Below, piece by piece: positions 1 to 50,000 of a stretch of 64,000 nt of DNA. Source of the DNA: Clytia hemisphaerica (lineage: Eukaryota; Cnidaria; Hydrozoa; Leptothecata; Clytiidae). The position numbers and the translations under genes are program-made. The notes under the pieces are model-generated. The model was not told the DNA's origin and did no database searches. It saw only the letters and a program-made list of their open reading frames with translations. How positions within the stretch are numbered: the first letter of the stretch is position 1; the number at the start of each line of letters is the position of its first letter. The stretch spans positions 1,487,243 through 1,551,242 of the forward strand of contig CACVBU010000181.1 of assembly GCA_902728285.1 (NCBI GenBank), read 5' to 3'.

Positions 1-227
1 TATGTGAAATATCTTTACTCTAACAGAAAACTTTCATGAAGACCAGATTTCAAAACAGTGCTTGAAAATAATCTACAATATATATGTAAGCCTTCCTTCT
101 TAAACTACCCCCCTTCCTTGTTATCTCCCCTTTCATAAAAATTTCTGATTACCCCCCTTCTTCATTTTTTCGGAAGGTGTCATCCTCCCAATACCGGGAC
201 TATGTCATCACCAACAAAAATAATCAC

Positions 228-9559: not shown

Positions 9560-9562
9560 CTT

Positions 9563-11440: not shown

Positions 11441-11446
11441 GTTGAA

Positions 11447-12867
11447 ATGGCTGAAGAAGGAAAACCGCAAACAAAAAGACTTGAAAATATTGAAAATAAT
11501 GGCTTTGGTCCATTGCCGAAAGCTCGTGGCATGCGTGATACTATCCTCTTCAGTTTACTAGTCCTTCTTGTGTATTTAAGCAGTGCTGCAGTATACCGAA
11601 ATTTTTACCAAGGAAAACGAGCTCTACTTTCACAAGATGTTGGAGATGCCTTTGTAATACTTTTTGGAATCTGTCTTGGGGAGTTGTTGCGCTCAATTGT
11701 GCTTTACGGAGAGGAGAAGAATCACACAGTATCGCGATATTCAAACTCTCATTGGAGGGCTTTACAGGCTTGTGTTCCATACTCTTGGAAGCAAATTTGT
11801 GTTTTCAAGGTAAAATTGGTTTTTTAACATTATTGGAAGTAGTATGTTGAAGATGTCTGACTTTTCTTAACTTACAGGGTTGATTACAAAAGACTTCTGA
11901 ATTTTTTTTATCAACATAGGGCTGATAAATTTTAAACTCCCTCCTCCCATGCTGTTATCAAACAAGATTTTTCGAAACAAAGTTTTACCCTTTTTGGAAA
12001 CAATTTTCCCAACCATGTCCATCAGCATCAGAGGAATTTTTTATTTTTTATTTTTTTATCACTGTTTTTAAAGAGATTTAATCTGATTGATTTAAATTTT
12101 TATTTTAGATTATTTTTTTGGTTATATCTTTTTGTGGAACTGCTGTATACTGGATTTTTGCTGAAAAGGTGTCGTTCAATGCATTCCATTTGTTATCCAT
12201 AACAGTTTTCAGTGCAATCAATCAAGTGGTTCTGTCCAAAGCTGAAGTCTCCCATTTGAATGAAACTGAAAACAAACATGTTGCTGATGGCCTTGCATGG
12301 AGTTATTACTTTGGCTACCTCAAAATCATGTTGCCTGGTATGAAAGGAATGTTGGCTTTAGCTCAAGGAGATGAGTACAAAATTGATGGCGAAGATATTC
12401 GTGATAAATTATCTTCAGAAAAGCTTCACATTGTGATTCCCAAAAATTGTTACACCTATGATTCTTTTAAAGAAGTAGATAAAAGAATCACTTTTAAATG
12501 CAGTATGCCACCAATCAAGAAAACCAGAGGAGGAGTTCAAGAGCGTGTCTACAAGAATACTGTTTGGGAGGTAAAACTTGAAGATGATGAAGAACCACTG
12601 TACGTGCTTATGGAATATGCCACACCTGTCCTATCCATGTATGACATGAAGAAAGAAGAAAGTGCTCACTTCCATGGACAGGATCTTGAAGACCAAGTTA
12701 AAGAATTTACAACCAAACTGCAGAAGATTTTGGATGAAGATGAAGAATGCAAAAATAAGTATGAAATTGTCTTATGCGGTGATGTCAAATCCCAAAAACT
12801 CAGCGAGATCATGCGCAGAACCATTCAAAAGGAAAAGGAAAATAAAGAAAAGGATAAAAACATATAA
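11447..12867 (+). CDS. STING1: STING (stimulator of interferon genes), paralogue a, 373 aa
   Basis: Exons 11447-11809 and 12109-12867 join in phase 0 (AAG|gtaaaa ... ttttag|ATT). STING is an ER membrane receptor for cyclic dinucleotides that triggers innate immune signalling. Four hydrophobic segments fill residues about 28-175. The ligand-binding domain starts with VADGLAWSYYFGYL, matching human VAHGLAWSYYIGYL. Pocket residues equivalent to human S162, Y163, G166, Y167, R232, R238, Y240, E260, T263 and P264 are all present (here S186, Y187, G190, Y191, R261, R267, Y269, E290, T293, P294), while T267 is Ser (S297). The protein ends soon after the fold with a Lys/Glu-rich tail (QKEKENKEKDKNI) and has no PLPLRT-type TBK1 site or pLxIS motif. 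Human Cys148 is replaced by Asn. The start is ATG 11447, just after an acceptor at 11440, so a 5' UTR exon is likely upstream. Confidence 0.96.
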
Positions 12868-13974
12868 GCTAACATAATGGTAGTTTTGAATTGAAATATG
12901 AAATGAAGTTCCCAGGAAAAAAACCGATTCCACCTTTTTTTATTTCAGAAGTGGTATATTTCCAATCACAGCTATTTTTGGACCCAGGGATGTAATAGCG
13001 TTTGAGAATGTATATGCCGAACAGGCCACTGAACACTGAGCCAACTCTATAGAGAGATTTGATTTTTGTGAAAAAGTTTACAAAATCAACGAAAAAGTGT
13101 TCCTCAGAGATACAATTTTGAAAAAATTTCTAACCTTAGAGACCTTAGAGAGATCTTTTCTTGGTTTCCAAAAAAGGAAAAATCCCAACCTTAGAGAGAC
13201 TTGAATTTTTTTTCTAAACTCCTAGTGATCGTCTGCACATACCCAGAACTATTTTTGCCTAAATTCCTCTCCCCCGTTTTTCAGTAACTACTATGTTGTG
13301 AACAGTATTAAATCATTTAAGATAATAACTGTAGAATCTTTCCAATAAATGTGACATGAAGTCAGAAAACTGGAAACTTCTCAAAACTAAAGTTTGGATG
13401 GGCTATAACTATCATGACTATAGTTTTGCGTTTTTGTGAATTATTAAAAAATATTAAATTTAAGTTTTAGGGTAATTTGAAGGGCTAGTTTTTGTCTCGT
13501 TTGTATATACCCTTTTCAAGCCATTTTTGTAGATTTTCTCAATTTTCCATACATCATCCCGAATCTTATTGTATAATTGAAAACTTTTGTCTTTAAATTT
13601 TATTTTTAGTATCAATCTTTGTATGGATTTATTAAACACAAAACTTATAAAAGCGACACCATTTTCACAAGTATTTTTAACGATTATCAAGTATAGAAAA
13701 CAATTTTTAGGATAAAATATAATGTTTATTGTTGTTTTTGTAATGTTTTAATTCTTTTATTCCTTGTTAATGGAAGAAATTTATTCCATAATCTTGTTGT
13801 AAAAGGTGAATGTATTAAAATAAGCAGGTTATATTGTAAGAATTCTTTATTTGAAAGACACATATGATTGAAAAAGTTGCGCTAATAGCTTTTAATTGTG
13901 TCTTTTCAAATTGCAGTGTGTACCAAACAGAATTTTCAAGTGAGCTACAGTCTGTCCAAAGAACAAAAAAGATG
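12868..13974. other. 3' flank of STING-a
   Basis: Probably holds the 3' UTR of STING-a, with a canonical aataaa at 13344-13349. Between about 12985 and 13270 are several ttagagagac motifs and catacccag.actatttttgcc, the same words found in the G/C-capped elements at 19.4-20.0 kb, so a decayed member of that family lies here. No further gene is seen. Confidence 0.5.
13344..13349 (+). terminator. Possible polyadenylation signal of STING-a
   Basis: Canonical aataaa about 480 bp after the stop codon of STING-a, the first clear one downstream. Its use is inferred from position only. Confidence 0.4.
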
Positions 13975-14225
13975 TTAGAAAAATTTACTTTGAGGTCATA
14001 AAATTTTAATTTTTTTTTTCTTTCAATAAAAGTACATTTTGATTTTTGTGCTTCTGAACTTTTTCAACTGTACAAGAGATGTGATTTGTATGTTTTTTTT
14101 TCACATACAAATCACATCTCGTCAGATCTCTTGTACATTTGAACAAGTGCAGAAGCACAAAAAATTAGGTTATGTACTTTTATTGAAAGAAAACTGTTAA
14201 ATTTTACTTAGCTCTGGTATCTTGT
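13975..14225. repeat. Foldback repeat, about 250 bp
   Basis: Arms of roughly 110 bp meet at a central run of t. The blocks gtacaagagatgtgatttgtatg and cacatacaaatcacatctc face each other, followed outward by gtgcttctgaac / gcagaagcac and by ctttcaataaaagtac / gtacttttattgaaag. A related copy with a collapsed centre sits at 16335-16510. Downstream unique flank (cttgtttgtttatcatcgag) is also shared, so the two were duplicated together. Confidence 0.8.
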
Positions 14226-14287
14226 TTGTTTATCATCGAGCAGTATTCAATATGATTTTATGAAAATGATTTTGAGGATATAAGAAG

Positions 14288-15686
14288 GGGCAGGTCTAAA
14301 ACGCCTAATACCTACTACTTAATACTTACTACCTAATACTTAATACTGACTACCTAATCCGTTTGGATACTTTACAGACCAGAACTTCCAGGCTCTCCTT
14401 CGCCTGTTCGAAATCTCTATTCTAAAAAAATGGTTTCGAGGAATTTGAATGTGTCATCTAAAAGAATATTTAAATAAATATTTTCTTCGCCTCATATAAG
14501 TACAAAGCAAAATGTTTTTATCTTAGTTTTTTTCCTTTTACTGCTCTCTCTTATGACTTTGATTTAATTATAAGAACACGTGTGCAAATATCTAAAACAG
14601 ATATTCTTATACACCCATGTCTCCTTTTTAAAAGATCCAGATGGTTTAAAACGTTTAGTGTGGTCGTGTTACAAAAATACAGGCTGTTTGTAGGAAAAGA
14701 ATAAGATCCAGCTGAAACTTTCTCCAGACCTTCTCTATAGGATGGTTATGCCTCAGGAAAAATTCCCCTAAAATCCCACTGGTGGAACATCCTTTTTTTG
14801 GGACATTTCTTTTTTCCCCAGGCAAAAGCCTAAGGGCGAAATTTTTTGAAAATTTCAAACTCATTTTTAGACATTATCAAGTATACCATTCGAAAGCTCT
14901 CGAAAAACTACATAGAAGACTTTTAAACGGGTATAGCCGAAATGAAAGGTAATGGTAATGAAAGGTAATGAAATCGGCTATACCTGTTTAAAAGTCTTCT
15001 ATATAGTTTTTCAAGAGCTTTCGAATGGTATACTTGATAATGTCTGAAAATGAGTTTGAAATTTTCAAAAAATTTTGCCCTTAGGGTTTTGCCTGGGGAA
15101 AAAAGAAATGTCCCAAAAAAAGGATGTTCCACCAGTGGGAATTTAGGGGAATTTTTCCTGAGGCATAACCATCCTATAGAGAAGGTCTGGAGAAAGTTTC
15201 AGCTGGATCTTATTTTTTTCCCTTAAATTATGCTAGACAACCCCACTAGTTATTTAAACGTTCTTTGAGATTAAATATAGTTAGGTCATTTAATTGTATC
15301 CTTTTGTATTTATCTGCATCATACGGAGTAGTAGGGCTTTATCTTCTCAACTGATTCTTATAAATAAAACTAATATGAATGAGTAAGCCAAAAATATTTT
15401 TCTCCTACGAAAAAGTGTGTCTCGACAAAATGTGCGTAGTCTGTAAACTTTATAGAAAAAGCGCGGGAAAATGAAGTGAAGAGAAAAAAAGAGCGAAAAT
15501 ATTTTCCTGTCTTCAAAACACTATAACACAAAAACTTAAAAAGTTTTTAACACCAAATTTTCAGATTTGGTCATAATTGGCATGCTGATTATTTTAAAGG
15601 TATTAAATTTTGAGGTATATACAGTAAATATTAAGTATTAAGTAGTAAGTATTAGGTAGTAGGTATTAGGCGTTTTAGACCTGCCC
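14288..15686. mobile_element. MULE-like non-autonomous transposon, 1399 bp, with exact 10 bp target duplication
   Basis: Ends gggcaggtctaaaacgccta (14288 on) and its reverse complement (to 15686) continue as a longer inverted repeat of tacctactacttaatactta type. The direct duplication atataagaag lies at 14278-14287 and 15687-15696. The related sequence near 16575 lacks the insertion and serves as an empty site. No transposase frame is present. A near-perfect internal hairpin is annotated separately. Confidence 0.9.
14697..15215. repeat. Long internal hairpin, two arms of about 245 bp
   Basis: Left arm 14697-14941 and right arm 14973-15215 are almost exact reverse complements (agatccagctgaaact facing agtttcagctggatct; gggtatagccga facing tcggctatacc). 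The spacer of about 30 bp is made of the repeated word gaaaggtaat. It sits in the centre of the MULE-like element. Some frames of the arms stay open, but this mirrors the arms and is not a gene. Confidence 0.9.
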
Positions 15687-15740
15687 ATATAAGAAGTCAT
15701 TGTCCAAAAACCTGTTTTATGAAGTTATTGACATTACGTA

Positions 15741-16006
15741 CAGTGCCGTAGCAACTGGGGGGCAAAGGGGGGGGGGCTATGCCCCCCCAATAATTTTTTT
15801 CAAAAATGGTTATTTTGCAAAATGCAAAAGTTTTTCTTTTTTAATTTGTCATAATTGTCTTTTATGTGCATGTTTTGAGTGTGTTTTTAAGCAATCTAGA
15901 GCTCAATTTTCAAAATTCCCCCCCCCCTCGGGCCAAACCATGGTTGGCCCTCGCGGTGTCACTAAACTTCAGCCCCCCCAATATGAAAATGCTTCCTACG
16001 GCACTG
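15741..16006. mobile_element. Mariner-type MITE with G/C-run interior, 266 bp
   Basis: Ends cagtgccgtag and ctacggcactg are flanked by TA on both sides, as for Tc1/mariner elements. The interior carries gggggggggg (near 15770) and several C runs. It interrupts the same repeated segment (gttattgacattacgta) that is intact at 16610-16630. Confidence 0.75.
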
Positions 16007-16334
16007 TATCTACGAAACGAAAATAAATTAATTTATTTCCTAATTCTTCTAAAATCTTGTCAAAGACCCAATGAAAATTGAAAACACGATGAAACAACAA
16101 CTGAAATCTCGATTTCGAGACAGATTTAATGTATTCTAGTAGTAGTAGGAGCCGTACCAAATCCTGTGTCGTATTTATATCCAAAACCATCTTATAAAAT
16201 ATGAAAAATATATTAATCCCTAGTTCTATTTCTAACTATAATTTTATTCCTAGCCCTAGTCCTAATCCTAATCATAATCCTAGTTTAAAAAATAATACAA
16301 CTACTCTCGTTCCTTGACCCCCTCGGATGAAAAA

Positions 16335-16632
16335 AAAAGCTGTTAGAAAAATTTATTTTGATGATTTAAAGTTTAAAAGTTTTCTTTCAATAAAAGTACA
16401 TAACTTAAAGTTTCGTGCTTCTGCACTTATTCAAATGTACAAGAGATGTGATTTGTATGTGAAAAAAAAATCTATGTACTTTTATTGAAAGAAAACTTTT
16501 AAATTTTACTTTGCTCTAGTATCTTGTTTGTTTATCATCGAGCACTATTCAATATGATTTCATGGCAATGATTTTGAGGATATATCAGCCATTGTCCAAA
16601 AACCTGTTTTATGAAGTTATTAACATTACGTA
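16335..16632. repeat. Second copy of the 14.0 kb foldback unit and its flank
   Basis: Matches 13975-14287 plus 15697-15740: the foldback part, then cttgtttgtttatcatcgag, then ccattgtccaaaaacctgtt and the block ending attacgta. This copy is free of the MULE-like and mariner-type insertions and so shows the order of events. Confidence 0.8.
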
Positions 16633-17518
16633 ACATTACGTCATAATTTTTTTCATGAACAAAAGTCATAAAAACGTCAAATTTTGACCATGAATAGATT
16701 AACTCAAATTTTGGGCAATAACTTCTTATAGTCTCAAAATGATTTTTCATAAAGCTATCATGCAAGACAATGCCTTTTCCTAGCTATTTAAAAACAAAAA
16801 TAACTTGATATTTGACCTAAAAAATACTCATTTTTACAAACTCGAAAGACCCATTATGAATTTGGTACTTGACGTAGCACGTACAGTCATTCGACGTAAT
16901 CAAGAACTGCCTTGAAGAAAATTACTAACATTAATACAATTAAGGTATTATTTTAAATTATTGATCTGTCAATTCTTTAAAAAAATGTGGTTATAAGACT
17001 TAGGGTCTAGGGATCTCAGAATTTACTTTAAAATTCAATCTTCAACAAAAATTTTTCAATTCAGAGTCCTAGATACTTTCATTGAATGGCTCTACATGTA
17101 GTTGTCAGGTATTTTCCCTATTGAAATACTAAAAATCATGAAAAAGTTGGCCTTCTAGTATATCAAAAAATTTACACCTAGTGGAGTCTCTTCATAACTC
17201 GAACTCGCTAATGGGGACCACAAATTTGCGGTTCTAGTTATGAAAATTTCGAATTATAGAGAAAGGCTTATAAGACATTACTAACTGAAAGGACCATGTT
17301 CGAGCTAAGGAGACTTTTGAATTCTAGAGGTTCGAGTTTAACAGACACCGCTGTATTAAATTGCTTTTGGATATGTCTGATATGATATACACAAAAGAAT
17401 GTTAATTCTCCTTCGCAATTCTCTCTTTCCATGTATGTTTTAAAACAATTTTATGTTTTTTTATTTTTAGCAAAATATAATAAGAATAAAGATCAAATAT
17501 GAGGAATTTATCATGCCT
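16633..17518. other. Intergenic DNA between the STING genes
   Basis: No gene seen. A short imperfect inverted repeat (cataactcgaactcgc near 17195, ttcgagtttaac near 17330) may mark one more small MITE. Confidence 0.4.
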
Positions 17519-17773
17519 ACACGTTTTTTTTTATAAGAACAAACTATATAAGAACATAAGGCTTCGAGGCCCAAAAATTTAAGAACATTCTAAGAACATT
17601 CTAAGGCTTTGGAGACTTAAAAACATGCATTTTCTTAAGAAATTACATCAAAATGCTAAAAAATGCTGAAAATAAGAACATTTTAAGAACATTTTTAGGC
17701 TTCAAATCCAAAAAACTAAGAACATCCGAAGGCTTCAAAATTTTTTGACGTTCTTATAAAAAAAAAAACGTGT
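17519..17773. mobile_element. MITE with T-run/A-run ends, 255 bp
   Basis: Ends acacgttttttttt-ataagaac and gttcttat-aaaaaaaaaacgtgt are inverted repeats of about 22 bp. The interior contains repeated aagaacattctaag and ggcttc words. Confidence 0.65.
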
Positions 17774-18430
17774 ATGTAGAAACATCAGAAGATCTGGACC
17801 GTTTTTCAAGCCCACTGCACGTTGTAAGTTAGTTGTTTTTAGTAGAGGCTCAATCCTTGGGATGGGATACGCAATCTCGAGTTCCTAATAAACGTACTGT
17901 AACGAATAAACATACATGGTTGAAAATGAAGGGATAAAAATCTGATTGGAGCTTCTTTTCAGGCTAGGTTAGGGGGGAAAATAATGGGTATTCTGCTTTC
18001 ATTTGACGAATAGATAAAACCTCCATATTCAATAAAGGGTATTTAGCCTCAGAAACACAAGTAGGCACTTGAAATTGAGGAAAGGTTTGTTGAAATTAAT
18101 AAATGTACATGTATTAGGATTTTGAACCCTTTCTGAGAGGGTGCCTTTAGACTTGGCCAGGTAAAACCTTTTATGGCCAAACGACTGACGATACAGGCGA
18201 AACTCTCTGTGCCAAAAAAATGGAGTCGAATAGAGAATGAAAATGTAAGAAAAAGTAAACCCCCATAAAGTTTTCCACTAAGACTCATTTCAAAGTACAA
18301 CGTTTTCTGTAGTTTAACTTTCATATTAGAATATTGCTATCTCTCGAGCAATACAGTATTAAAATATAGAGGTCAAAGTACAAATGTTTGACTGCCTTGT
18401 CAAAAAAGGTGGATACAGCCTATCGCCTAT

Positions 18431-18842
18431 CGCGTAATTCCCCCGGAGGGGGACCTTGACGGCCGTCAGGGACGTGCCGCTGGAGTTAAAATAAAGTTAA
18501 AAAGAGATAAAAAGAAAAATGGACCCTGTCAGATATGAATATCTGGTAAATTTAAAACCCTGTCAGAATGAAAAATCGTAAAACCTTCCAATTTTCACCC
18601 TGAAAAGTGGCCAAAATGACTAAAGATTGACGCAAAATTGAAAGATTTTCTAATTTCCATCCTGAAAATTGTCAAAAATTACCAAAAGTTGATCCTATCA
18701 GATAAATATCTTAAAATTAGTAAATTTAAGACCCTGTCAGCTGTCAGATATCTTTAAGAGCCTAAAAAGGAACCCTGACAAGCGGCACGTCCCCGTACCT
18801 ATTTTTGCCTGATTGCCCCCTCCCCACCCGGGGTAATTCCCC
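18431..18842. repeat. Low-complexity repeat block with inverted gggacgtgccgc motif
   Basis: gggacgtgccgct (18469) faces agcggcacgtccc (18780), with outer C-rich blocks on both sides. Inside, words of the type accctgtcagat recur at least five times. It is probably a decayed element related in style to the G/C-capped family at 19.4-20.0 kb. Confidence 0.5.
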
Positions 18843-19360
18843 ATTTACGTTCATCGAAAATGAAAGTTTATTATTATGCTCTTCATGAATAATGAAAAGA
18901 TCTGGAAATTCCCTAAGGAGCTCGAAGGGAATTTTGAAATAGAGTCAAATCAAAATCAATTTATAAAATATTAATAGAATTCATACCTTTCCATAAATAC
19001 AATAGTTCTTACGAAAGTACAAATTAAAATGGAAATTCCCATTCCATTTTAAGATAGGGTAATCACCTATCATTATCATCATTTAAAGTGTTCCTAAGCA
19101 CCAGCAAGTTATTGTTTGGTGTTCTTTTCTTATTCTGTTGACACTTTGAACTACGTAATTTAAATTTATGTGTTTTAAACATAATAAATATTCACGTTTT
19201 TTACCTATAACCTGGAGATTCAAATTTTGTTATTCTTTCACTGGTGTCCAAACTTTATTGGAAAAGATGCAAGTTTTAATTTGTTTTAATTTTTTAGTAA
19301 GTGATCGAGGACAGCGCAAAAATCTGCCTCACAGGTCGAACCTGTCCTGTCTAGTTTTGA

Positions 19361-19996
19361 CGGGGGGGGGACAGCCAAGTAAGATGACTGACGGGTATGT
19401 GCGGGCAATAAGGGTGTGTTTTTTAAGGCATTTCCAAAATGCACTGTAAGGGTGGGTTTTTTGCCGCCTGCACTGTAAGGGTACGAATTGACCCATTTCA
19501 ATCACTCCCGGGGGGGGGGGTACTAGGGTTGGCGAATGAGGGGTATGTGCTGAAAAGGTGACCCTTAGAGAGACTTTATTGAATTTTTTTTTTTCGATTT
19601 TTGAAAAAAAAGTCATACCCTTAGAGAGACTTTATTACAATTTTTTCTCTGGAAATCAAAAAATTTCCTAAAAATCCTGAATTTTCCGACCCTTAGAGAG
19701 ACTAATTTTAAAAACTTTCTGAGTTTTCCGACCCCTTAGAGAGACTTTGAAAGGTGAAAAAACCGACCCTTACCGTCCGCACATACCCATCATCCATTTT
19801 TGCCTAAGTACCCCCCCCCCGGGCAATCACTTCAGGGAAAAAAGCTAGAATGCACTGTAAGGGTATTCAACTTCGCGAAAAATGCACTGCAAGGGTGTAT
19901 TTTTCGGGAAAAACCACTGCTCTGTAAGGGTGCGATTTTGAACGCCAAATTTTAGCCCGCACGTACCGTCAGTCCAATATCCGACTGCCCCCCCCG
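19361..19996. mobile_element. G/C-capped non-autonomous element (outer, interrupted)
   Basis: Begins cgggggggg-acagccaag and ends with the inverted counterpart ...gactgccccccccgg. The subterminal block gactgacgggtatgtgcgggc has its mirror gcccgcacgtaccgtcagtc before the right end. The words gcactgtaagggtg repeat inside. It is split by the inner element at 19507-19823. Confidence 0.75.
19507..19823. mobile_element. G/C-capped element (inner) with exact 8 bp target duplication
   Basis: Starts cccgggggggggg-tact and ends agta-cccccccccc-ggg, 317 bp. caatcact occurs on both sides (19499-19506 and 19824-19831), an 8 bp duplication as made by hAT and related transposases. The interior repeats acccttagagagact with spacing of 50-60 bp. 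It has no coding capacity. Confidence 0.88.
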
Positions 19997-21130
19997 GACC
20001 TTCTTTAATCTCAACTTAAAGCAGCAGCCTCAATGTTTCTTAAGAAATCGGCCTTTTCAGTATTTAATGTTTCTTACATATGTTTCTAAGCTTTTTGACA
20101 AAATCAGCCTATTTTTCATGCAAAGAAGAAAAACATTTGTTTCAATTGGAAGGTTTTAAAAAAAACGAATTAAAAATGTTATTTTCTCATTCTCAGCCTC
20201 AGCATGTTTCTTGTAGATGTTTCTTAGTTTCCAGGCATTCTGAGCCTCATGTTTCTTAAAAGTGTGTTTCTTAAAAAACACAACGTGTAACCAAACAGTC
20301 TTTGGCTCTTTGGTATACCTTCGTTTCACATACCTGTTGGCAGGGTTGGCACTCTTGCCCTACTTTGGCCTAAATCTTGTCCCCAATGGGAAATGGGAGC
20401 AATAGAATTTCTATCCCCATTGGGATTTCGATCGAAATTCCCATCCCCACTGTTCACAAAAGAAACTGAATTTATGTATGAATTTATGTTCAAAACTTCA
20501 GTCTTTCAGACCTAAAAATTTACAGTATGGTCTATTTTTTGAGGGGACTATTTCGAGTAGCCTATCTCTATCCCAACACGCGATTTTTTGATCCGACAAG
20601 TTACAGACGGAACGGTGTCGAGGAAAAAGCCGTGGTCGTCTGGTACAGGCAATATTTCGAGTGGAACGCTATCCGGGTTGGAACGATATCAAGCGTTAAA
20701 AGTGAGTTTAGGAGTTTTGAACTGTAGAAAGTATTATAATAAGTATTATATAGTATTTTTGAAATGTCAACAGACTTGGAACTGTGTGAGATCATACACT
20801 GTATATAACATGGAACTGATTCATAAAATTTTGATATTATTCTCAAAATTCTCATACATTTTCCATGAATCAGAAGTACACCTGGAAATTCCCCACACCA
20901 CTGCACGAGATTTCCGCGATGAATAATAAAAAAAGCTCTTCAGAAAGATTGCTAGATTTTGTCTACGTACAGGGAATTCCCTGTTTCATAAGGGAAAGTA
21001 CCCTATCGCCATAAATCATTCATTTAATCATAATAAATAGCTTGATATGTTTTTTAATATCATCATAACACAATTTTTTTAGTTAAGTAAGCAACAGACA
21101 AGAAAGAATTTATCGTTTAAACGACTGAAC
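19997..21130. other. 5' flank of STING-b
   Basis: 20030-20290 contains repeated atgtttctta words like those of the 17.5 kb MITE. Two overlapping frames at 20527-20926 match nothing known. ttttttag at about 21081 could be a splice acceptor for a 5' UTR exon of STING-b. No clear promoter element is seen. Confidence 0.45.
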
Positions 21131-22531
21131 ATGGATAAATCTTTAAAAGTTAACAACTTCTTTGGCGAGCTTCCTGAGCGACGTGGTTACGGTGCAGAAT
21201 GCGGTAAACTTGCTGCAGTTGTTGTGTTTCTTTTAACGCTGGCAAGACATCGAACATCGAACAACAAGGAGATTATATCATTAGAAGATCTTGGTGATAT
21301 TGCTGTTATTGTCTTAGCAATAATCTCTGCACAGCTCTTACGATGCCTTTATTTGCTGGTTGAGGAAAGACGATGTTTGTTTTCGAGATATAATGGCTCC
21401 ATACAACGAATGCTGAAAGCTTGTTTACCAGACTCTCCTAGCACAGTCATCAGTATCAAGGTAGGTCTTCTGATTTGATCTCCATGATTTGGTGTATTTT
21501 TCAGGCAGTTGCTGTGAAGTTTTAGGAGACATTTCTGTTTGCTGTTTTTTTTCTTCTAAACTTACAAACGAACTTAAAAATGAAAATGTCCTCTTACCAA
21601 AATAAGTTCCTCGCCACAAACAATTCTGTTATTCATCAGCTCTTGAAAACTAAACTGAAATATACTGACAGCTGATAATCACGGGAACAGATAGCAGTCA
21701 AAACTAGAGAGAAATCAAACTCGATCATTCAATATGGCTAACAACATTTTTTATACTTTCTTCTACTTTTAGATTGGTTTGTTCCTCATTTCATTCGCTG
21801 GTTCATCTTTTTATTGGATCACATCAACCGAACCTCGTTTAGATTTCTCTCTCTTCATAGTAATCACTTTTATCTTATCCCTGGATGTCCTTCATTTATC
21901 CAAAGCTGAGATCTCCCACCTCAATGAAACCAAAAACCAACATGTTGCTGATGGCCTTGCTTGGAGTTATTACTTTGGTTATTTGAAATTGATTTTACCA
22001 AGGTTTCCAGAGATGATTAATTTAGCCCATAGCGAAGATGATACATTCAAAGCAGATGGTGTTGATCTACGTGACCAATTATCGTCAGAAAAGCTGTTCA
22101 TTATTATCCCAAAGAATTGCTATACCCATGCACAACTTGGTCAGTTTGATGATCGAATCTGTAGAGATGGTTTTAGCACGCCAGAATTCAAGTACACCAG
22201 AGCTGGCGTCAAAGAGAGGTCATACAAGAATACCGCATGGAGAATTGACTACCCTGGAGAAGAATCACTGTATGTTCTAATGGAATATGCGACACCTTGT
22301 TTATCTATGCACGATATGATGCTACATGCTCGTTCCCAGTTTGATGAAGAAGATTTGGAAGCACAAGTGAAGGAATTCTCAATCAAACTACAATCGATTT
22401 TGGACAGCGATGAAAAATGTAAAGGTCGATATCATTTGATATTGTGTGGTGATATTAGACATCAGAAACTTGGTGATCTAATTAAAGAAGCTGTGCAAAA
22501 AGAACGAGAAGAACAAAAGAAAGGACAATAA
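21131..22531 (+). CDS. STING1: STING (stimulator of interferon genes), paralogue b, 362 aa
   Basis: Exons 21131-21460 and 21773-22531 join in phase 0 at the same point as STING-a, and exon 2 has exactly the same length (759 nt), so the two arose by tandem duplication. Four membrane segments are followed by the cyclic-dinucleotide-binding domain. Pocket residues are kept: S175, Y176, G179, Y180, R253, R259, Y261, E281, T284, P285, with Ser288 at the human T267 site. The shared LSKAEISHLNET linker and HVADGLAWSYYFGYL are near identical to paralogue a, while exon 1, the dimer lid around residues 190-250 and the segment after RTAWR-type sheet differ clearly. The C-terminus is a short charged tail (QKEREEQKKGQ) with no TBK1- or IRF3-recruiting motif, so any signalling would use a tail-independent output such as autophagy or an unknown partner. 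The start ATG at 21131 is the first in frame after an upstream ttttttag. Confidence 0.96.
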
Positions 22532-23372
22532 TTTGAAAATTATGTTTTAGTATTCCCATGACGGGAAGGACTTACAAATCTTTGTTAATGATAAGTTGAT
22601 GTACAAAATAACATTGAGACTTAATACTTGAAAGTATTATGCTGGATAAATATTCACTTACTCCATCCCCTCTTAGGGTTAGCCAGCTATATTTTTTCTT
22701 GCCTGTTAAACTAGTAAGCATTTATAAATAATATTTATGTATATACACAGCATTTTTCTTTAAACAACACATCTTTCCCGATATCGATTGCGTAATACTA
22801 AAACACGGGAAATTCGACATAGATTTTTTGGAAAATGTTTGTAATTTTTTTTCTTATAACTTATAAAAGTGTAAAGGGACTCAAGACACAAGTTTTATCT
22901 TCAAATCTCATAACTGATCTTTTGACTATGGTCAGAGGCCCATGTAGAACCCCCCCTTGGGGTTTGTCAGCTCTTTTTTTGCCTGGAATTTTAAAATAAT
23001 ATTTATGTACATACAGAGCATTTTTCTTTAAACAATTTAAAAAAAAGTACAAAATCATTTTTAACTCATCTCGTGTTCTCTATTTTTTTCCGGTCGATTC
23101 ACCCCAACAAATTTTGAGATTTTTTGAAATTTTAAAAAGTTTTCTTAGGTTTTCTTTAAGTGATATTGTTAACAGTTTGAGGAATTTACGTAACACCATT
23201 AAATTTCGCCAGTTAAGAATTTGAAAATAGTCATTTTAGCGCCTACCTTTCAAGCAATCACCATGAAATCTCAATTTTTTTTCTCGAGGATTTTTTATGC
23301 TGATATAAAAGCCTTCTAGTTGTAAATATTATATCTGTGGTTATAACTTTTAGTATTCTTTTGTTGCTTTAG
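22532..23372 (+). other. STING-b 3' flank and 5' part of the MTRF1L-like gene
   Basis: No canonical aataaa is obvious close to the STING-b stop. The start codon and mitochondrial presequence of the MTRF1L-like gene are not identified. They may lie here in a short exon that joins the 23373 exon in phase 2. A stray ctatggtcagag at 22926 matches the ends of the element at 25972-26665. Confidence 0.4.
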
Positions 23373-32461: not shown

Positions 32462-32522
32462 AATGATCTTGTTCTTGTCAATGTGTAGATTTTCTGTTTT
32501 GTCTAAAAGTGATTGATATGAT

Positions 32523-32790
32523 ACACCCCTGTCTCACAGCAACTCGGTAGGGATGAAAATTCCTATTGAAATCCCAATGGGGATGGAAATTCTATTGTTC
32601 AAAGGTTAAAAATTCCAGTGGGGATGGTTTTGGAGTGCAATTTTTAAACATTTAATTTCGATTGGGGGATGAAATATAAGCCATTTTCCCAGTGGGGCTA
32701 AAATTCCAGGGTATTCTCCTACCGGGAACGAAATTTCCGCCAGATTTTCCAGTGGTGCTGGGTCCCAGCGGGTCTGTGACACAGGGGTGT
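32523..32790. mobile_element. hAT-like MITE (acacccctgtctcaca family), copy 1
   Basis: Inverted ends acacccctgtctcacag and ctgtgacacaggggtgt. tatgat is found on both sides. The interior repeats aattccagtgggg. It lies just upstream of the claudin-like gene. Confidence 0.85.
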
Positions 32791-36073: not shown

Positions 36074-39000
36074 TCAAATCACTAGTCCATTTCTATCATC
36101 ATTTTCATTGAAAGCATTGTCTATACTTTCGTAATCTTCTCCGCCTTTGTCATCTTCTTTTGTGTCATTGCAATTTTTGTTTGTGGGTGGTGTTGGTTGT
36201 TCTGTGTTTTCGTCGTCGTTTTGAGTGTTACGATTTTTTTTTTCGACGTAGTAAAAATATCTGAAAAAAGAAAGACAAAATTTTTTTTCAAATCATAGAT
36301 CTTCACAAGGTTGGTCTAGAAGTAGGGATAGTTCTATAATATTTGTTGATACTTGCAAGCATTGACAAAATACTATACTAGTAAAAACTATTGAAAAATT
36401 AAATTATAAATAGAAGATTTCCACGAACACACTGTATTTCACTACAGACTCTGAGTTTTATATTTCTACAATCATCAGTTGTGAAAAAAGTGAATATCCG
36501 CTCCTAGTTAGTTGAGCACTGTTTGAAGCTTGCAGACTCATTTTGTGTTTTCAATACAGCGTATACAGAGAAATTCGAGATTGTTATCTATCCGGGTCGG
36601 AACTTATTAAACAAGCGAACTGAAATCATCGCCAAATGCCGCCACAGACTAAAATTTCTCTTCGAGACTTTCGAATAATTCTTATTTTGAATTGACGTCA
36701 GAAAATTTTTTTGAAGACATTAAATTGTAAATTTTTATAAAACGTTTATTTCACTGAATATTGCCATCCTGGATGGCATGAAACCGTGAGTATGAAATTA
36801 AACTAAATCGTTTTCTTTACTCAAACTAGTCTCGGGTAAATTAATGCGTGTCCAAATTTTCGTTAATTTTTCGGAGGCAATTCCACCCCTCCTAGCATAA
36901 TAAATTATACCTTTAAAGAAGTGCATTACGATGTAGAACATGAAAATCGGTGTTACTTAAATTTAGGTTTTGCCAATTTTGCGAAAAATCGCAAAAATCA
37001 AAAATTGCTGACGTCAGCAAAACTTGTTTTTTAAATAACTCCAGTTTGGCTAATGATATGAACATGAAATTTGGACCAAAGTTGCACATCATTAAAAGGT
37101 TCATTTTGAAAAATTATTTTTTTGAAATTTTGCTGATGTCAGGACTTTATTGCAAATTTTCGTATTTTGCTGATTTCTGCTGACGTCAGCAAAATTTGAA
37201 AAAAACGATTATGCAAAAATGTTTTTATTAATGATATCCGAGGTATAAAGCTCTGTTATCATTAACATTGAGCACTGTTATTGATTTTGGCTTACACAAA
37301 GCATACAGCTAATAAAGTTACTTACAAAGTGGAAAACTTACGTTGAGAAAATGATAGGAATGATTGTAGTGAAACTAGCAATAATGAACACAGCAGCAGG
37401 TTCGTTATGTTGATTCGTGTAAATGTAGATTGCATTGTAAGATAACGAGGCTACCAAACTGACGATGGTTTGGAAGAAACCAAGTACTGAAAAGACTGCA
37501 CCTGTATAGGAGAAAATAATAATATAATAATAATAATAATAATCAAAGGATTACCAAGATATAGCGCCGAACCAATGTTGAGACACCAATGTCCCGGGGG
37601 GGGGGGGGCACTCGATTTCTAAATGATGGCATGTGCGGCCAAAAATTGGTTTGTGAAATCGGACCCTTAAATCAAAGTGAGTCAAATACAAAGATACATC
37701 AGATTTTTATTGTCAAACATGCGATCCAGCAGTCCAAACACACCCTTACATGGTATCCAACTAAAAGAAGACCCTTGTAGTGTCAGACCACCATGAGTGC
37801 CCCCCCCCCCCAGGGCCACGGTCCAAGCTAGGGTATGCGTAGAAAATATTGACTTGGGTCACTATTGCTGAATGCAAAAAACCTTTCATTTATCAATAGA
37901 TTTCGAATAAAAACTTCTCATCTAAGGTTGTTGAAGCCTTCCACTGGAGTTGAATTCTATTTTAGGTAATTGTAACAAATTTTTTCTAAATCCTTTCTTC
38001 AATTGTATCTCCTTACCTTGTTCGTTGGCATCAACAATTTGTGAGATTATTCCTCTTGTTATTGGTTGTGCTGAATATGCAAATAAACCAGCTAAAATGG
38101 CTGAAAATAAAAAAGGTATTTTTGCAAAGTCTGTTTCTAAGATACAACAAGAGCCGTAAATATGGGGTTAAGTGTTTCCTTTTATTCGTCGAAAAAATAA
38201 TTTAATTTTGGCTTACTCTGTACCAGAGGGCATCTAAAGTATCAAATAGCGTATCACATTGCCTCACTGCGGCAATGAAATTCTGTAATTTCCGTATACA
38301 TCAGATCTGATTGCAGACAAATTTTGGTCGCGTGAGAAGCGTAAATAATACCAACTTTTCAAAAAGTTTAATTATTTCACATACAGAGAAAAATACTTTG
38401 TGTCTCAGTTTGTAAAATACAATTAAGGTTTTCTTCCTTAGTGGTTTCTTAAGCTAAGTGTCTACCAATTGGTAACGTTATTAATATAATTTTGTCCTCA
38501 AACAACAGATCCATTGTTTCAAGGCTATAGTATGAGGTACAGCAGAGAACTACATTGTAATTTAGAGAGCCTAAGACAGTATCTTTCAAAGTATGTATTT
38601 TTATTACAGTTAAAAGTAAAATAAATCTTTTATAAAACAACTTACATACATAAGAAGCCCATACACTTCTGGAGAGTGAAAATGATACTAAATAACCGGC
38701 AGACGATAAACAAGCCACAATAATGACCAACGGTTTTGCCATGATATACGGTAACAGTTTCACTGCTATTACACCGCCCACGCCCATTATAGCGAAAAGG
38801 GCGCCCCTGTAATATCCTATCCATGAAGAGGGCCAACAGAATGGAATGTTCAGTAAAATAAGAATTAACAGACTCTGAACACTGACAGGTGCTGTAAAAC
38901 CTACAGTCGAATCCACCACCATGAGAAGAAGTAACTTTTTACGGTTAGGTCTCTTTCTGATAACGCTACCTAGCACCCGACGAGGGATGGTAAATAATGG

Positions 39001-40809
39001 ATCTTTTGTTTCAGTTCTTTTCTCAGGCGGTAGTGATTCGGAGATGAATAGAAAACACCAGATCACGGATACGATTGAGATGGTAAACATCAGAAGAAAA
39101 CAAGCAAGGAATCCAAATTCTTGAAGATATTTGCCGTTTGAGAAGTTGCTCGCTGTTATGGCAGCGAATAAAACAAGATCCACAATAGCTGAAAATATAA
39201 AACAAATTCAATCTTTTAGACAATCGAAGCTTCACTGAACAGATAATTGACTACTAATATATCGATATCGCTCGAATAAACATGAAAAATGGACATCCTA
39301 TACCTTCTTAATCTGAAGGTTTGAAGAGCAAAAACCTTTTGGAAGCACAGAGTAGCTTATACGAATGAAAATTGCCAATACACGTTCTCCAGAACTCCAG
39401 AACTAGAAACACTTCTGTCTCGCAGACCCGGTGGAACTTTTTTCCTCAGTGGGGAAAAAAATTCCTATTGAAATCTCAATGGGGATAGAAATTTTATTGT
39501 TCCAAGGTTAAAAAATCCAGTGGGGATGGTTTTGGAGTGCAATTTTTAAACATTGGATATCGAATGGGGTTAAAATCAAACTCAAATTCCCAGTGGGGCT
39601 GAAATTCCAGGTTATTTTTCCACAGGGAACGAAATTTTTGCCAAATTTTCCAGTGGGGCTAGGGTCCCAGCGGGTCTGTGACACAGAGGTGTTCTAGAAA
39701 TAAAAAAGACAAAACAAACTTACCTATTCTAAAAGCTCTATTATCCGGTTGCGTTCGGTCAGAAACATAAGCCAATAACGCAACAACAGCTGATAAATAA
39801 TATCCACAACATCCCCAAATGAAATTAGCAACAAGAATTAAATATCTGCTCAAATTGAAATAAACAACGGCAGTGAGGATCGTCGACCAAAATGCGTAAC
39901 CGATAAAGGCGATCATCATGACAACTTTACGACCATACCGATCGGCTAATGGGCCGAAGAAAAGAACTAACAAAATAGGTGGAATGTTTTGCGCTAACAT
40001 TAAATAAAGTTGGAACTTGGATATTCGGTCTTGAACCTATAAATAAAGAAAATGGAACTTGTCAAAGACAAACGTTGAAAAGTCGTATTCATAATGGGCT
40101 CTTCCAGAAAATGTCCGTATATGGGGGGTGGAGGATATATTTTCCGGGGGTAATTTGGGTTGTTCGGGGGGTCAACTGATGCTTGTCCGGGGGCCAAAAG
40201 TCACTTTGTCCGGGGTAAATCACTGAAAATTGTTATATCCTCCACCCCCCCCCCAATTTTTTTTCTGGAAAAGCCCAATTGTGTTTCTAATGTTCAACTA
40301 AACAAGATGGGATATATTTCTTACCAAGCTAGAAAAAGATTCAAGTTGATATTTAGTGTATCTTTAGGGTGCTGGGTTCTTGGGTTCACAGCCTTGCAAC
40401 TTTTTCAAAGTCTGCTGACCTAACAGAGTTCCAAAATAAATTAATCCTTGAAAAAATTTCCGATTTTATTTATCTGACATGGTTTAAAAATCAATTAGAA
40501 TGGCCTAAGCCATATGCTAATTACCAGATTTTGAAACGTTGACGTCTTGTGCCAGTTAGTAAGTATAGAATCTCTTACCTCCTTCAAAAGTGTATGGCTG
40601 GTCGAGTTCAAATCACCTTTATTGCAATCACTATTAGCAGTATTTGAATTATACGTATAATTATATCCAACTTCGTCACTGAACACTTTATATAAATATT
40701 GCTCCAACGTTGGTCCAGAGAATAGGACACCATACAGATGAAAAACGAAAAGCAGTTCTGGATAGTAGCGTAAACTTCTGATGAACTTTTTGAATTTGGT
40801 AAACGCCAT
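36074..40809 (-). CDS. SLC46A: SLC46-family major facilitator transporter A, 505 aa, six exons
   Basis: Exons 40809-40579, 40036-39724, 39188-38646, 38100-38017, 37501-37342 and 36260-36074 give 1518 nt with consistent phases and GT/AG borders. SLC46 proteins are MFS carriers: SLC46A1 moves folate with protons, and SLC46A2/A3 are linked to cyclic dinucleotide and muropeptide transport. Exon 1 gives a short N-terminus, TM1 and an extracellular loop with two N-glycosylation sites (NYT, NST) and one Cys. Exon 2 has the MFS signature GPLADRYGRK. Exon 3 contains TM5-8 and an FCWPSSWIGYY loop whose Cys could pair with the loop 1 Cys, as in SLC46A1. Exons 4-5 carry TM10-12 (SAQPITRGIISQ, VDANEQG). 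The tail is long and acidic/Asn-rich. Introns 2 and 4 hold MITEs. Substrate cannot be told from sequence. Confidence 0.92.
37594..37815. mobile_element. G/C-capped element in SLC46-A intron 4, about 222 bp
   Basis: cccgggggggggggg-cactc at the left faces gagtg-cccccccccccc-aggg at the right. The subterminal word gcatgtgcggcc resembles that of the 19.5 kb copies. It stands 93 bp from the exon 5 acceptor. Confidence 0.78.
39409..39692. mobile_element. hAT-like MITE, copy 3
   Basis: acacttctgtctcgcag / ctgtgacacagaggtgt ends and the same aattccagtgggg interior as copies 1 and 2. ctagaa is found on both sides. It is inside SLC46-A intron 2, about 30 bp from the exon 2 donor. Confidence 0.83.
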
Positions 40810-47000: not shown

Positions 47001-50000
47001 ATGAAACAACGTGTTGTACATTTCAAACTTTATCACAAGCTATCTATCAAAACACACACCAACAAGCAGAGCGCAGTTATGACATCAGTACAAAATATCT
47101 CCTTTGTCCTTTGAATGTGTCAAGGAAAATGAGAAAAGTGACTTGCTTGGTAAGCAAAAATAGTAACCTTTTGATGATAATTAGAAGTTCGATGACTACA
47201 CATAAACAGTCAGAATTCTTTGAACACTAGATGTTGCTATAAGGGTCAGGTTACACAGAGTTTCAAAATCACATGTTTGACATTAGACTGGATGGGGAAA
47301 ACCTTTTCGTGCACTTACTGTACTAAAAAGTCGAACTTGTGCATTTCACTTGGTTTTTTGAATAAAGTATAATAAAAGTGAAAGTTTTTTGTATATATTA
47401 AAGCTAAAGGACACCTTAGTGAACTCTACAGTGTGTCCCAAAAAAGCGGACAAAATCTTATACAAAGTCATGACTTATGCGAATTTTTATGACTTGCATA
47501 CTTAATATTTCACTCTCCAAAACCTATTCATTTTTACTTTATATAAAAATTTGCTCAAACTCAGAATTTTTACAGTGGCTCATATAGTTGTTGTTGAAAC
47601 GTACCCAAAAATAAATCTTCAATAAATGAAAAAATGCCCAAAAATATTTCTCCCAAAGGAACAATTTTGGATAATTTTAGCCAGACCTGACCAATTTGAT
47701 AGCCATTGGGCTGCTCCAAAGTTTCAAGCTCGCTTTTTCAATGTCAAAAGGTAAAACATTTCATTCTTTCAAGAAATTCGCTCTGAGTAGACCAAATGGA
47801 AGAAGAGACTAGGCTTCTCATTGTTGTAATAACTGAATTGAATTTTTATAGAATTTCCAACACTCGCAGCACATTGGCATCTATCAAAAATGATCTTTCT
47901 TCCCATAATCCAGTATGAACTAATAAACTAAATATCTCCAAGAGTAAAATCCCGAAAAAAAATAAAGTCAAAAGAGATTATAATTAGATCTATAAACAAA
48001 AATCAAAATCAAATCAAATCAAAACAACGACAGTTTTAACATGAAGCATACAAATCATCTCATTATGTTATCCTCTTTCCATTTTGATCATTAGGAAATG
48101 TGCTTAAGGATGTAGCAATAAAACTTGACCAAAACTTTTCTCATATGTTTAGATAGAAAACACCTCATACTTGAAGAGATTTGTACTGTTGTTATTTGCT
48201 CCCTTTGCCAAAATATTTGTTTAGGTCAAGACTCACATAAAATAATTACGGACACTTTTTACTTTTAACACTTAAATCACTTACAATGCGTTTTAATTTT
48301 TTTCGATTTTAGGAGGGGCGTTTATTCGAAGGGGCGTTTAAAAGAAGGGGGCGTTTATTGAATTTTTTTAGTCGAAACTCGAATATTTAGAGCAAATATA
48401 CCATTTGTTTTAGTTCTTTGTCAGGATTTTAGTGCAAAATTCCTTTGGTTCAACGATGAAAACTGCATCGAAAAGTGCTCTGGTTACAAGAAATGACTAA
48501 AATCTTCCTTTTCAAACCCAATCAACACTGGTATTGAAGTATTAAACTCACAAGTTTCTAATAAACGCCCCTCCCCTAGAGTTTATTCGAAGGGGCGTTT
48601 ATTTGAGGGGGCGTTTATTAAATCATTTTCCTTTTAGGAGGGGCGTTTATTCGAGGGGGAGGGGGCGTTTAAAAGAAGGGGGCGTTTATTCGAAGTAATA
48701 CGGTGGAGGAGCTAACATCTCATCCTAGTGGCTGGATCAAAGAATGAAAGAAACTTCAACTTGTTTGCTGATCGAATATAAGACGTCTAGTACTTTATAG
48801 CAGTTTCTCAAAATTCAATAAACGAAAAAATGCCGACAGACAAAGCAGCTAAACTGCCAGGGCTGCTTGTGGATACTTACAATGCTAAGATGAATGGAAA
48901 AGCCAACGCAAAAGCGATTGCAATGAAAACAGCTTGTGGTTTTCCTTTCTCATCTGCCAAACGATATATCTTTTGATACGTGAATGTTGCTATGGTCTGA
49001 ACCAGTGATTGCATAGCGCTTACGAAAGCATATAATGCACCTGAAACAAACAATATTGTAAAAACATAGTAACACAGCAGTTACATGGCACGAAACATCA
49101 AGCTGTGCTCATCTTGCACTAGCCCGGAGTCCACTTAAAGCTTTTTTTTATAGAATGGATGGCGCTTGATTATATCATTCAACTCCAAGTAGTTCTAGTG
49201 TTATTTGGATTTTTAATATTTTTCTCTCGAAATAGTCTACTGGACTCAGCGTCATAACAAACTATCAAAAAGCAAAGCTCAGCCAAAAGTAGACTCTAGT
49301 CCAATCTTGCACCCATCGCACCCATATAACGTTAGATGGACGTTGAGACGATGAGATACGTAACGTGCTCGCTATCTCATAAATCTTTCGTATGTCATCA
49401 GTCTGAAAAAGTGTCTAATGAGACCAATTTGAATTTAGTTGTTTTACGGGCCCGACCGACCCTGAAATTCCAAAAATCGAAATAAAAATAAAATTGATTT
49501 TGGTAGTACATTTTTGTTTTCATTGCTTTACAGACTGCCAAATGCTCAAAATTTTGGTAGTTTTTTTCAGGTTTTGGGAATCTCATGTTCTATTTTTCAT
49601 TTTATCCATGAATTCGAGCTTTTTTGTCTTTTTATTTTCCATTTCGCATTTTTGTCAAGGTGTAGTAGTTTTTGCTGCCTTTTTAGGAGATTTTAAAGGT
49701 GAGATTCCACTTTTATTTTTACTTTTTCGCCGACCGACCGAGCCTATTTTTTGGGTAGCTTGGCCCTTAAAACAACAAATTAAATTGGCCTCGCCTAATC
49801 TTTTATATTAAAAGACTCAAAATGTTTCCCGAATATAATTTCACCATGTCACCATGTCACTCACTGCGTAATAATGGTCTGAGGATAAAATTAAAGAGCT
49901 AAACAAAAATCGCTTGCTTTTGAAGAGTGTGGATTTTAAATTACCTTGGTTATAGCTCAAAACCCAAGTGAAGATACTTATAATTACAATTTTTGCTTTA

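Follow-up and report, generated by a model that had tools for sequence, protein, structure and literature searches.

Two tandem STING genes of Clytia hemisphaerica, STING-A and STING-B, appear by residue to share one class of ligand pocket and may be divided mainly by regulation, STING-B being NF-kB-inducible and STING-A not; this is the reading that we favour, and we give it about an even chance. The pair is an old local duplication, and both copies have long been kept under constraint.

Gene models and identity

The genes lie in a 64-kb window (the whole stretch of DNA that was analysed). The initial annotation had described a tandem STING pair with the same single phase-0 intron and an exon 2 of equal length, and this description held. 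Both frames are intact, with two exons each, and encode proteins of 373 aa (STING-A) and 362 aa (STING-B):

11447..11809, + strand, STING-A exon 1 (363 nt, 121 aa; N-terminus and first membrane helices)
11810..12108, + strand, STING-A intron (phase 0, GT-AG)
12109..12867, + strand, STING-A exon 2 (759 nt including stop; ligand-binding domain about 12280-12825)
21131..21460, + strand, STING-B exon 1 (330 nt, 110 aa)
21461..21772, + strand, STING-B intron (phase 0, GT-AG)
21773..22531, + strand, STING-B exon 2 (759 nt including stop; ligand-binding domain about 21944-22471)

The Pfam family STING_LBD matched STING-A with E=1.5e-46 and STING-B with E=8.9e-41, and STING_TM matched residues 70-176 of STING-A (E=2.1e-8) and 57-165 of STING-B (E=7.8e-12), all above the gathering scores. 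In a PDB sequence search the best 60 of 76 matches were STINGs for both proteins alike, headed by the Nematostella STING 5cfp (E=1.2e-40 for STING-A, 9.1e-35 for STING-B), and these E-values exclude a chance resemblance to STING. Hydropathy regions lie at residues 32-50, 59-86, 117-135 (which spans the exon junction) and 137-164 of STING-A and at 20-38, 59-77, 98-129 and 129-153 of STING-B; together with the STING_TM matches, these overlapping peaks, read as four regions, indicate a four-helix N-terminal membrane domain in both STINGs. The ligand-binding domain is likewise present in both, by the Pfam and PDB matches and, for STING-A, also by Foldseek. The predicted structures of the two exon-2 proteins are of low confidence (mean pLDDT 48.7 and 51.7), and a Foldseek search with the STING-A model returned STING structures among the best 50 of 462 matches and added nothing on pocket geometry. 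One Foldseek match, 8ywb, bears no more specific title than 'a protein with a ligand'; among the PDB sequence matches it is a STING.

No third STING copy was found in the window, where the 13 tblastn rows beyond the true genes and their cross-matches had E-values of 2.6 to 9.8. None of 49 pattern matches in a genome contig collection and none of 61 in a viral contig collection was confirmed as a relative, and Rfam gave no match at gathering scores. The gene on the left-hand side, which has a WWE domain, is presumably SEC23IP-like.

Age and divergence of the pair

STING-A and STING-B are 47% identical in amino acids, with synonymous sites near saturation (NG86: dS 2.42, pS 0.72, dN 0.49), and differ at 162, 105 and 201 first, second and third codon positions, respectively, over 359 codons. 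Uncollapsed alleles are excluded because of this low identity and the near-saturated synonymous sites. That the pair is an assembly artefact or includes a dead copy, for which we found no supporting evidence, is of negligible probability, given the intact frames, the GT-AG introns, the exclusion of alleles by pS and the 8.3 kb that separate the genes. The binding domains are 56.9% identical (103/181) and are mutually the closest among the six sequences compared.

Ligand pocket

All pocket residues named in the initial annotation (human S162, Y167, R232, R238, Y240, E260, T263 and P264) were recovered by alignment, eight of eight identical to human in STING-A (S186, Y191, R261, R267, Y269, E290, T293, P294) and in STING-B (S175, Y180, R253, R259, Y261, E281, T284, P285). 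The linkage preference of coral STINGs is reported to be set by two positions, which correspond to human S162 and T263 (PMC9980059). STING-A and STING-B both have S and T there, and both also have the P264 equivalent; S/T/P at human 162/263/264 is found in STING-A, STING-B, human, Nematostella and Sp-STING1 of the coral Stylophora pistillata, and Sp-STING3 has N, S and N. By residue, both copies belong to the 2'3'-preferring subclass (S at 162, T at 263; human, Sp-STING1), and neither has the N at 162 and S at 263 of the 3'3'-preferring Sp-STING3. A split ligand preference, as had been suggested earlier, is therefore not supported, and a split through the known determinants is rejected, as the copies are alike at human positions 162 and 263.

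A subtler ligand split is possible because differences remain near the pocket and lid, at human positions 236 (STING-A Q265, STING-B K257), 233 (G/A), 239 (V/S) and 265 (V/C). Position 236 is the one altered in the Nematostella structure 5cfp, which its title calls 'humanized F276K', and there is a precedent in S. pistillata, whose STING paralogues share 54-75% identity across the binding domain (PMC9980059). It is nevertheless unlikely that STING-A and STING-B differ in the cyclic dinucleotide that they prefer, in the way of Sp-STING1 and Sp-STING3, since the published linkage determinants and the P264 equivalent are alike, and of 2'3' type, in both.

C-terminal tail and output

The absence of a vertebrate signalling tail, claimed in the initial annotation, was confirmed by C-terminal alignment and by a tail-pattern scan downstream. 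Only 13 residues (STING-A) and 11 residues (STING-B) are left after the Q aligned to human Q335, so that the proteins end shortly past the ligand-binding-domain helix, with neither PLPLRTD nor pLxIS of the TBK1/IRF3 type. Six tail-like patterns, run against all three forward frames of 12868-21130 and of 22532-25300, revealed no hidden tail exon; the only matches, two loose [LIV][LIV]xIS, run into a stop, after four residues in one and immediately in the other. The L333/R334 pair reported to be necessary for autophagy by human STING (PMC9417302) is absent from both C-terminal tails, where T-I (STING-A) and A-V (STING-B) are aligned to it in a register uncertain by 1-2 residues, and since neither copy has an L-R counterpart this motif does not separate them.

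Identity is 35.5% in exon 1 (39/110), 26% in the membrane part of exon 2 (11/42) and 33% in the tail (7/21) vs 60% in the binding domain (112/186), which would fit copies that traffic or signal differently, or that heterodimerise with one tuning the other. We consider such a split in output quite improbable, as we saw no positive sign of differing outputs and the autophagy pair is missing from both copies alike.

kB sites upstream of STING-B

The strongest asymmetry found between the copies is in the upstream DNA, not the protein, a cluster of kB sites being present before STING-B only. The window has four distinct strict kB sites, and every one precedes the STING-B ATG, at distances of 159-2227 nt; two are at least 2.1 kb away from it:

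18904..18913, - strand, kB site GGGAATTTCC, 2227 nt before the STING-B ATG
19031..19040, - strand, kB site GGGAATTTCC, 2100 nt before the STING-B ATG
20884..20893, - strand, kB site GGGAATTTCC, 247 nt before the STING-B ATG
20972..20981, no strand assigned, palindromic kB site GGGAATTCCC, 159 nt before the STING-B ATG

No kB site occurs in the 2 kb before STING-A and no strict site near that gene, and the window scan gave none near the SLC46-like genes described below. In post hoc controls (three motif patterns had been viewed on two promoters beforehand), four sites were reached in 2 of 2000 dinucleotide shuffles of the 2.3 kb and two sites in 0 of 5000 shuffles of the 300 nt; permuted consensuses placed at least two sites in 300 nt in 0/2000 cases and at least four in 2.3 kb in 0/2000, and four uniformly placed points fall inside the span of the sites with p=1.75e-4. 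The 310-nt neighbourhood of each of these sites has no other match in the window. The sites before STING-B are beyond chance in this post hoc sense, and position alone is unusual: strict strand matches in the whole window number 5 vs 3.89 expected, which is ordinary, and the looser GGRNNNYYCC gives 27 vs 30.5, with no enrichment. Introns in the 5' UTR may shift the true promoters, because an AG acceptor-like site stands just before each ATG.

No interferon-type ISRE was found in the 2 kb before either gene, and in 2.3 kb there was none before STING-A and one before STING-B. Nine other motifs were tested; STAT-like sites number three before each gene (of 40 in the window), and STING-A is preceded by two CRE sites (of 9) and three SOX-like sites (of 23).

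The palindromic site GGGAATTCCC has the letters of an EMSA probe used for anemone NF-kB (PMC5700166, PMC10329013). The NF-kB of this animal may have a site preference of its own; human p50 and anemone NF-kB are reported to have closely similar binding profiles (PMC5700166), and according to a review these NF-kB proteins vary somewhat in the sites that they recognise (PMC13042239). The NF-kB proteins of two jellyfish are described as binding a consensus kB site, and neither was able to drive a kB reporter when placed in human cells (PMC12221839). Nematostella is reported to mount an antipathogen response with increased nuclear NF-kB when infected with bacteria or given a 2'3'-cGAMP mimetic (PMC9621439), and a gene that reacts to cGAS-STING activation there, TRAF3, has been proposed as a direct NF-kB target with three upstream sites (PMC10329013).

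Under dosage or drift, the two genes would encode receptors that largely duplicate each other, without any true split, and the kB cluster would be due to chance or non-functional. The chance-level kB count of the whole window, the like pocket class and the post hoc discovery of the motif all agree with this; the position controls (shuffles and permuted consensuses) and the fact that both copies have been kept for so long under constraint argue against it, and we regard it as rather improbable.

SLC46-like transporters nearby

Two tandem transporter genes lie in the same window:

36074..40809, - strand, SLC46-like transporter 1 (six exons, 505 aa)
48881..52304, - strand, SLC46-like transporter 2 (five exons found, 441 aa; last exon not found, with no convincing candidate)

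Exons 2-5 of the two genes are equal in length (313, 543, 84 and 160 nt). PCFT/SLC46A1 (7bc6) is by a wide margin the best match of both proteins among solved transporters: the first aligns to it across 415 residues with E=2.6e-28, the runner-up having E=3.6e-4, and the second across 391 residues with E=1.1e-21, the runner-up having E=1.2e-4, so that the relation to SLC46 extends over most of the MFS fold. Among the human members A3 is provisionally the most similar to both transporters, followed by A1 and A2, as judged from approximate sequences. SLC46A2, the human cGAMP importer according to reviews, is thus not the closest member to either.

A functional tie of these transporters to STING is only a hypothesis, and our literature search on STING with SLC46 found no report of such linkage. 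It is a long shot that the locus forms a cyclic-dinucleotide response neighbourhood, in which a resting STING-A and an NF-kB-inducible STING-B would be served by two SLC46-type carriers, within 41 kb and on the other strand, that import extracellular cyclic dinucleotides for both.

A possible division of labour

Both STINGs would sit in the ER as dimers, closing over a cyclic dinucleotide with 2'3' linkage that is presumably supplied by a cGAS-like enzyme, and both would act without TBK1/IRF3. In the division by regulation that we favour, NF-kB would turn on STING-B through the four predicted kB sites that precede it within 2.3 kb, which would make it a feed-forward, infection-induced copy, and STING-A, which has no kB sites, would serve as the resting sensor. 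A retained pair with similar pockets but different upstream DNA would allow a direct look at whether tonic sensing and inducible amplification are divided between two genes in an invertebrate, and it also offers an exact test of the rule by which ligand linkage follows from the residues at human 162 and 263.

Comparison with known STINGs

Human STING1 shares its eight named pocket residues with both copies, but has the TBK1/IRF3 tail and the L333-R334 pair, which STING-A and STING-B lack. The equivalent of human C88, a residue with a role in palmitoylation, is present in both (C109 in STING-A, C98 in STING-B), whereas human C91 aligns to a gap. Nematostella vectensis STING (5CFL-5CFR) is the best solved relative by sequence, 5cfp being the top match for both copies; it is likewise described as being without the vertebrate tail (PMC9417302), and has F276 where STING-A has Q265 and STING-B K257. 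For Nematostella, one STING homologue is spoken of (PMC9621439), whereas here there are two.

The initial annotation was right that a retained pair is uncommon, 88% of the animal genomes analysed in one study encoding a single STING (PMC9980059). Several STINGs are already reported in a coral, an oyster and Hydra, so that such a pair belongs to a kind already known: Hydra, also a cnidarian with more than one STING, is credited with three candidates, STING-1/2/3 (PMC10855445), and Stylophora pistillata has seven STINGs (PMC9980059). Stylophora (Sp-STING1, 8EFM/8GJZ; Sp-STING3, 8EFN) likewise carries several STINGs in one invertebrate genome, with the architecture, stacking and lid residues seen in STING-A and STING-B, although the segment past the first ligand helix is longer in our two proteins. 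In the binding domain, Sp-STING3, whose 3'3' changes occur in neither copy, is 40.1% identical to STING-A and 33.9% to STING-B, and Sp-STING1, whose 2'3' determinants occur in both, is 40.2% identical to STING-A and 43.5% to STING-B.

Gene structure and divergence of the STING pair

Gene models, Pfam and PDB sequence matches all bore out two tandem STING paralogues, STING-A and STING-B, with the same single phase-0 intron and equal exon 2 length, and the initial annotation of the pair was right in all details checked. The intron of each is GT-AG and exon 2 measures 759 nt in both; STING_LBD was recovered with E = 1.5e-46 in STING-A and 8.9e-41 in STING-B, STING_TM with E = 2.1e-8 and 7.8e-12, respectively. 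For each protein the best 60 of 76 PDB matches were all STINGs, and the top one among the matches listed was the Nematostella entry 5cfp. By themselves the STING matches point to a probable cnidarian, with few invertebrate STINGs among the PDB matches listed. The window DNA is animal-like (35.4% G+C, with introns and reverse-transcriptase elements).

Features of the window
183-998 and 9212-9673, - strand: leftward gene, toward the left edge; WWE domain in the 183-998 frame
5807-7437, + strand: LINE-type reverse-transcriptase copy (RVT_1 match)
11447-11809 and 12109-12867, + strand: exons of STING-A (373 aa)
14693-15221: foldback element with a 33-nt loop between 248-nt arms (97% complementary)
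21131-21460 and 21773-22531, + strand: exons of STING-B (362 aa)
25303-29257, + strand: peptide chain release factor gene (PCRF and RF-1 domains)
30377-32533, - strand: claudin/PMP22-like membrane protein (exons joined by eye)
36074-40809, - strand: SLC46-like transporter 1, in tandem with transporter 2
41182-43152, + strand: LINE-type reverse-transcriptase copy (RVT_1 match; 656-aa open frame)
44558-45907: tandem repeat, 477-nt unit, 2.8 copies; 152-nt unit at end
48881-52304, - strand: SLC46-like transporter 2, in tandem with transporter 1
59180-60282, - strand: LINE-type reverse-transcriptase copy, resembling the other two by eye
61611-62369: tandem repeat, 30-nt unit, 25 copies, open in several frames

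The stretch 9212-9673 is likely the first exon of the WWE-domain gene, which at 183-998 we tentatively take to be SEC23IP/DDHD-like and which lies head to head with STING-A; the release factor gene, immediately 3' of STING-B, is probably of mitochondrial type. Inverted and direct repeats surround the foldback element (13961-16632) between the two STINGs. Pyrimidine-rich, AG acceptor-like sites lie closely 5' of both STING start codons (11427-11446 in STING-A; 21060-21083 in STING-B), which may point to introns in the 5' UTR or to trans-splicing.

The two proteins are 47% identical (167/356, BLASTP); identity is 35.5% (39/110) in exon 1, 26% (11/42) in the membrane part of exon 2, 60% (112/186) in the binding domain and 33% (7/21) in the tail. 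NG86 gave pS 0.72, dS 2.42 and dN 0.49, and with dS close to saturation the dN/dS of about 0.2 is rough. Uncollapsed alleles as the source of the pair were excluded by the A-B sequence comparison. We aligned six sequences: both copies, human STING (confirmed identical to 6nt5) and the solved binding domains of Nematostella STING and of two Stylophora pistillata STINGs, Sp-STING1 and Sp-STING3. Because STING-A and STING-B share 56.9% identity over the binding-domain columns (103/181), and neither exceeds 43.5% with any other sequence, the duplication seems to postdate the divergence from the anthozoans of the compared set, by pairwise comparison rather than by a tree.

kB sites upstream of STING-B

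The strict NF-kB-type motif (kB site, GGGRNWYYCC) gave five strand matches in the whole window, corresponding to four distinct sites, all four of which lie upstream of STING-B; an initial scan of the 2 kb upstream of each STING with three motif patterns had placed kB sites before STING-B only.

kB sites and distance from the STING-B ATG
18904: kB site, -2227
19031: kB site, -2100
20884: kB site GGGAATTTCC, -247
20972: kB site GGGAATTCCC, -159

The total is at chance level (5 strand matches vs 3.89 expected), and the unusual feature is the position of the sites, not their number. Four random points fall within the span of the cluster with p=1.75e-4; dinucleotide shuffles of 2.3 kb held four sites in 2/2000 cases (mean 0.30), and 300-nt shuffles held two in 0/5000 (mean 0.006). 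None of 2000 column-permuted consensuses yielded at least two sites in 300 nt or at least four in 2.3 kb, and among 30 palindromic permutations of the kB core, ranked by count, the kB form alone had more than one site in 2.3 kb. Within the window, the 310-nt neighbourhoods of the sites matched only themselves. Nine other motif patterns formed no comparable cluster before STING-B, the maximum being three STAT-like sites (three also before STING-A, 40 in the window), and the looser GGRNNNYYCC showed no overall enrichment (27 found vs 30.5 expected). In raw counts, the 2.3 kb before STING-A (9147-11446) contain two of the nine CRE-type TGACGTCA sites found in the window, and none stands before STING-B.

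STING-B is probably an NF-kB-driven copy. In Drosophila, STING itself is induced by NF-kB. The site GGGAATTCCC served as the probe in work on anemone NF-kB (PMC5700166; PMC10329013), the binding profile of which is described as little different from that of human p50 (PMC5700166). Bacterial infection or a 2'3'-cGAMP mimetic reportedly raises nuclear NF-kB in Nematostella (PMC9621439), where TRAF3, responsive to cGAS-STING activation, has three upstream kB sites required for reporter activation, and where 8% (16/200) of random upstream regions have a predicted kB site within 500 bp (PMC10329013). Against an NF-kB-driven STING-B, the jellyfish Aurelia and Clytia are reported to have NF-kB proteins that bind a consensus site, yet both failed to activate a kB reporter when tested in human cells (PMC12221839); according to a review, the specificity of these proteins varies to some extent (PMC13042239).

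Ligand pocket and C-terminus

Complete cyclic-dinucleotide pockets were confirmed in the six-sequence alignment, with 8/8 of the residues named initially found in each copy; predicted structure models were of poor quality. In S. pistillata two positions, equivalent to human S162 and T263, are reported to track linkage preference, with S and T in the 2'3'-preferring Sp-STING1 and N and S in the 3'3'-preferring Sp-STING3 (PMC9980059). Both Clytia copies align S at human 162, T at 263 and P at 264. The proposed split in ligand preference was therefore not borne out at the coral determinants, and by the only determinants that could be tested (162 and 263) both copies are of predicted 2'3' type. 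The copies carry unlike residues at human 233, 236, 239 and 265. At 236, STING-A has Q and STING-B has K where Nematostella STING has F276 (changed in 5cfp, the 'humanized F276K' structure), so the two may differ more mildly in how they handle ligands.

As initially claimed, neither copy has the vertebrate signalling tail, and the forward frames downstream, up to 21130 (STING-A) and 25300 (STING-B), held no convincing tail-like motif. The tailless Nematostella STING is reported to answer cGAMP with autophagy, not interferon, and in human STING the L333-R334 pair has been mapped as required for autophagy (PMC9417302). No L-R counterpart was found in STING-A or STING-B; because the helix is short and the alignment register may slip, we take this as a caution on transferring an autophagy output to them rather than as a difference between them.

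SLC46-like neighbours

Beyond the release factor and claudin-like genes lie two SLC46-like transporters that are 34% identical (148/437) and have four internal exon lengths in common (313, 543, 84 and 160 nt). For each, the best hit is the proton-coupled folate transporter (SLC46A1, 7bc6), with 2.6e-28 for transporter 1 (next best 3.6e-4) and 1.1e-21 for transporter 2 (next best 1.2e-4). They belong to the same family as human SLC46A2, a cGAMP importer according to two reviews (one PMC10855445), but are provisionally nearer SLC46A3 and A1, both ranking SLC46A3 > A1 > A2 against human sequences. The linkage to STING may well be chance, because invertebrates often have many SLC46-like genes, the linkage was noticed post hoc, after the window had been read, and the whole-window scan found no strict kB site near these genes.

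Comparison with other animals

What would be new, if true, is the regulatory split between STING copies, described in none of the papers listed by our literature searches, and, more remotely, the SLC46 link. The papers listed for STING together with SLC46 were reviews by title, and none was a report of that linkage. The pair is indeed rare, one STING being reported in 88% of animal genomes (PMC9980059). It is not new in kind, because several STINGs have been reported elsewhere: some animals have 3-10, such as the oyster C. virginica and S. pistillata, the latter with seven (PMC9980059), and three candidates are listed for Hydra and two for the lancelet B. floridae (PMC10855445). Multi-STING animals are thus already known, and the tandem pair of Clytia adds to them.
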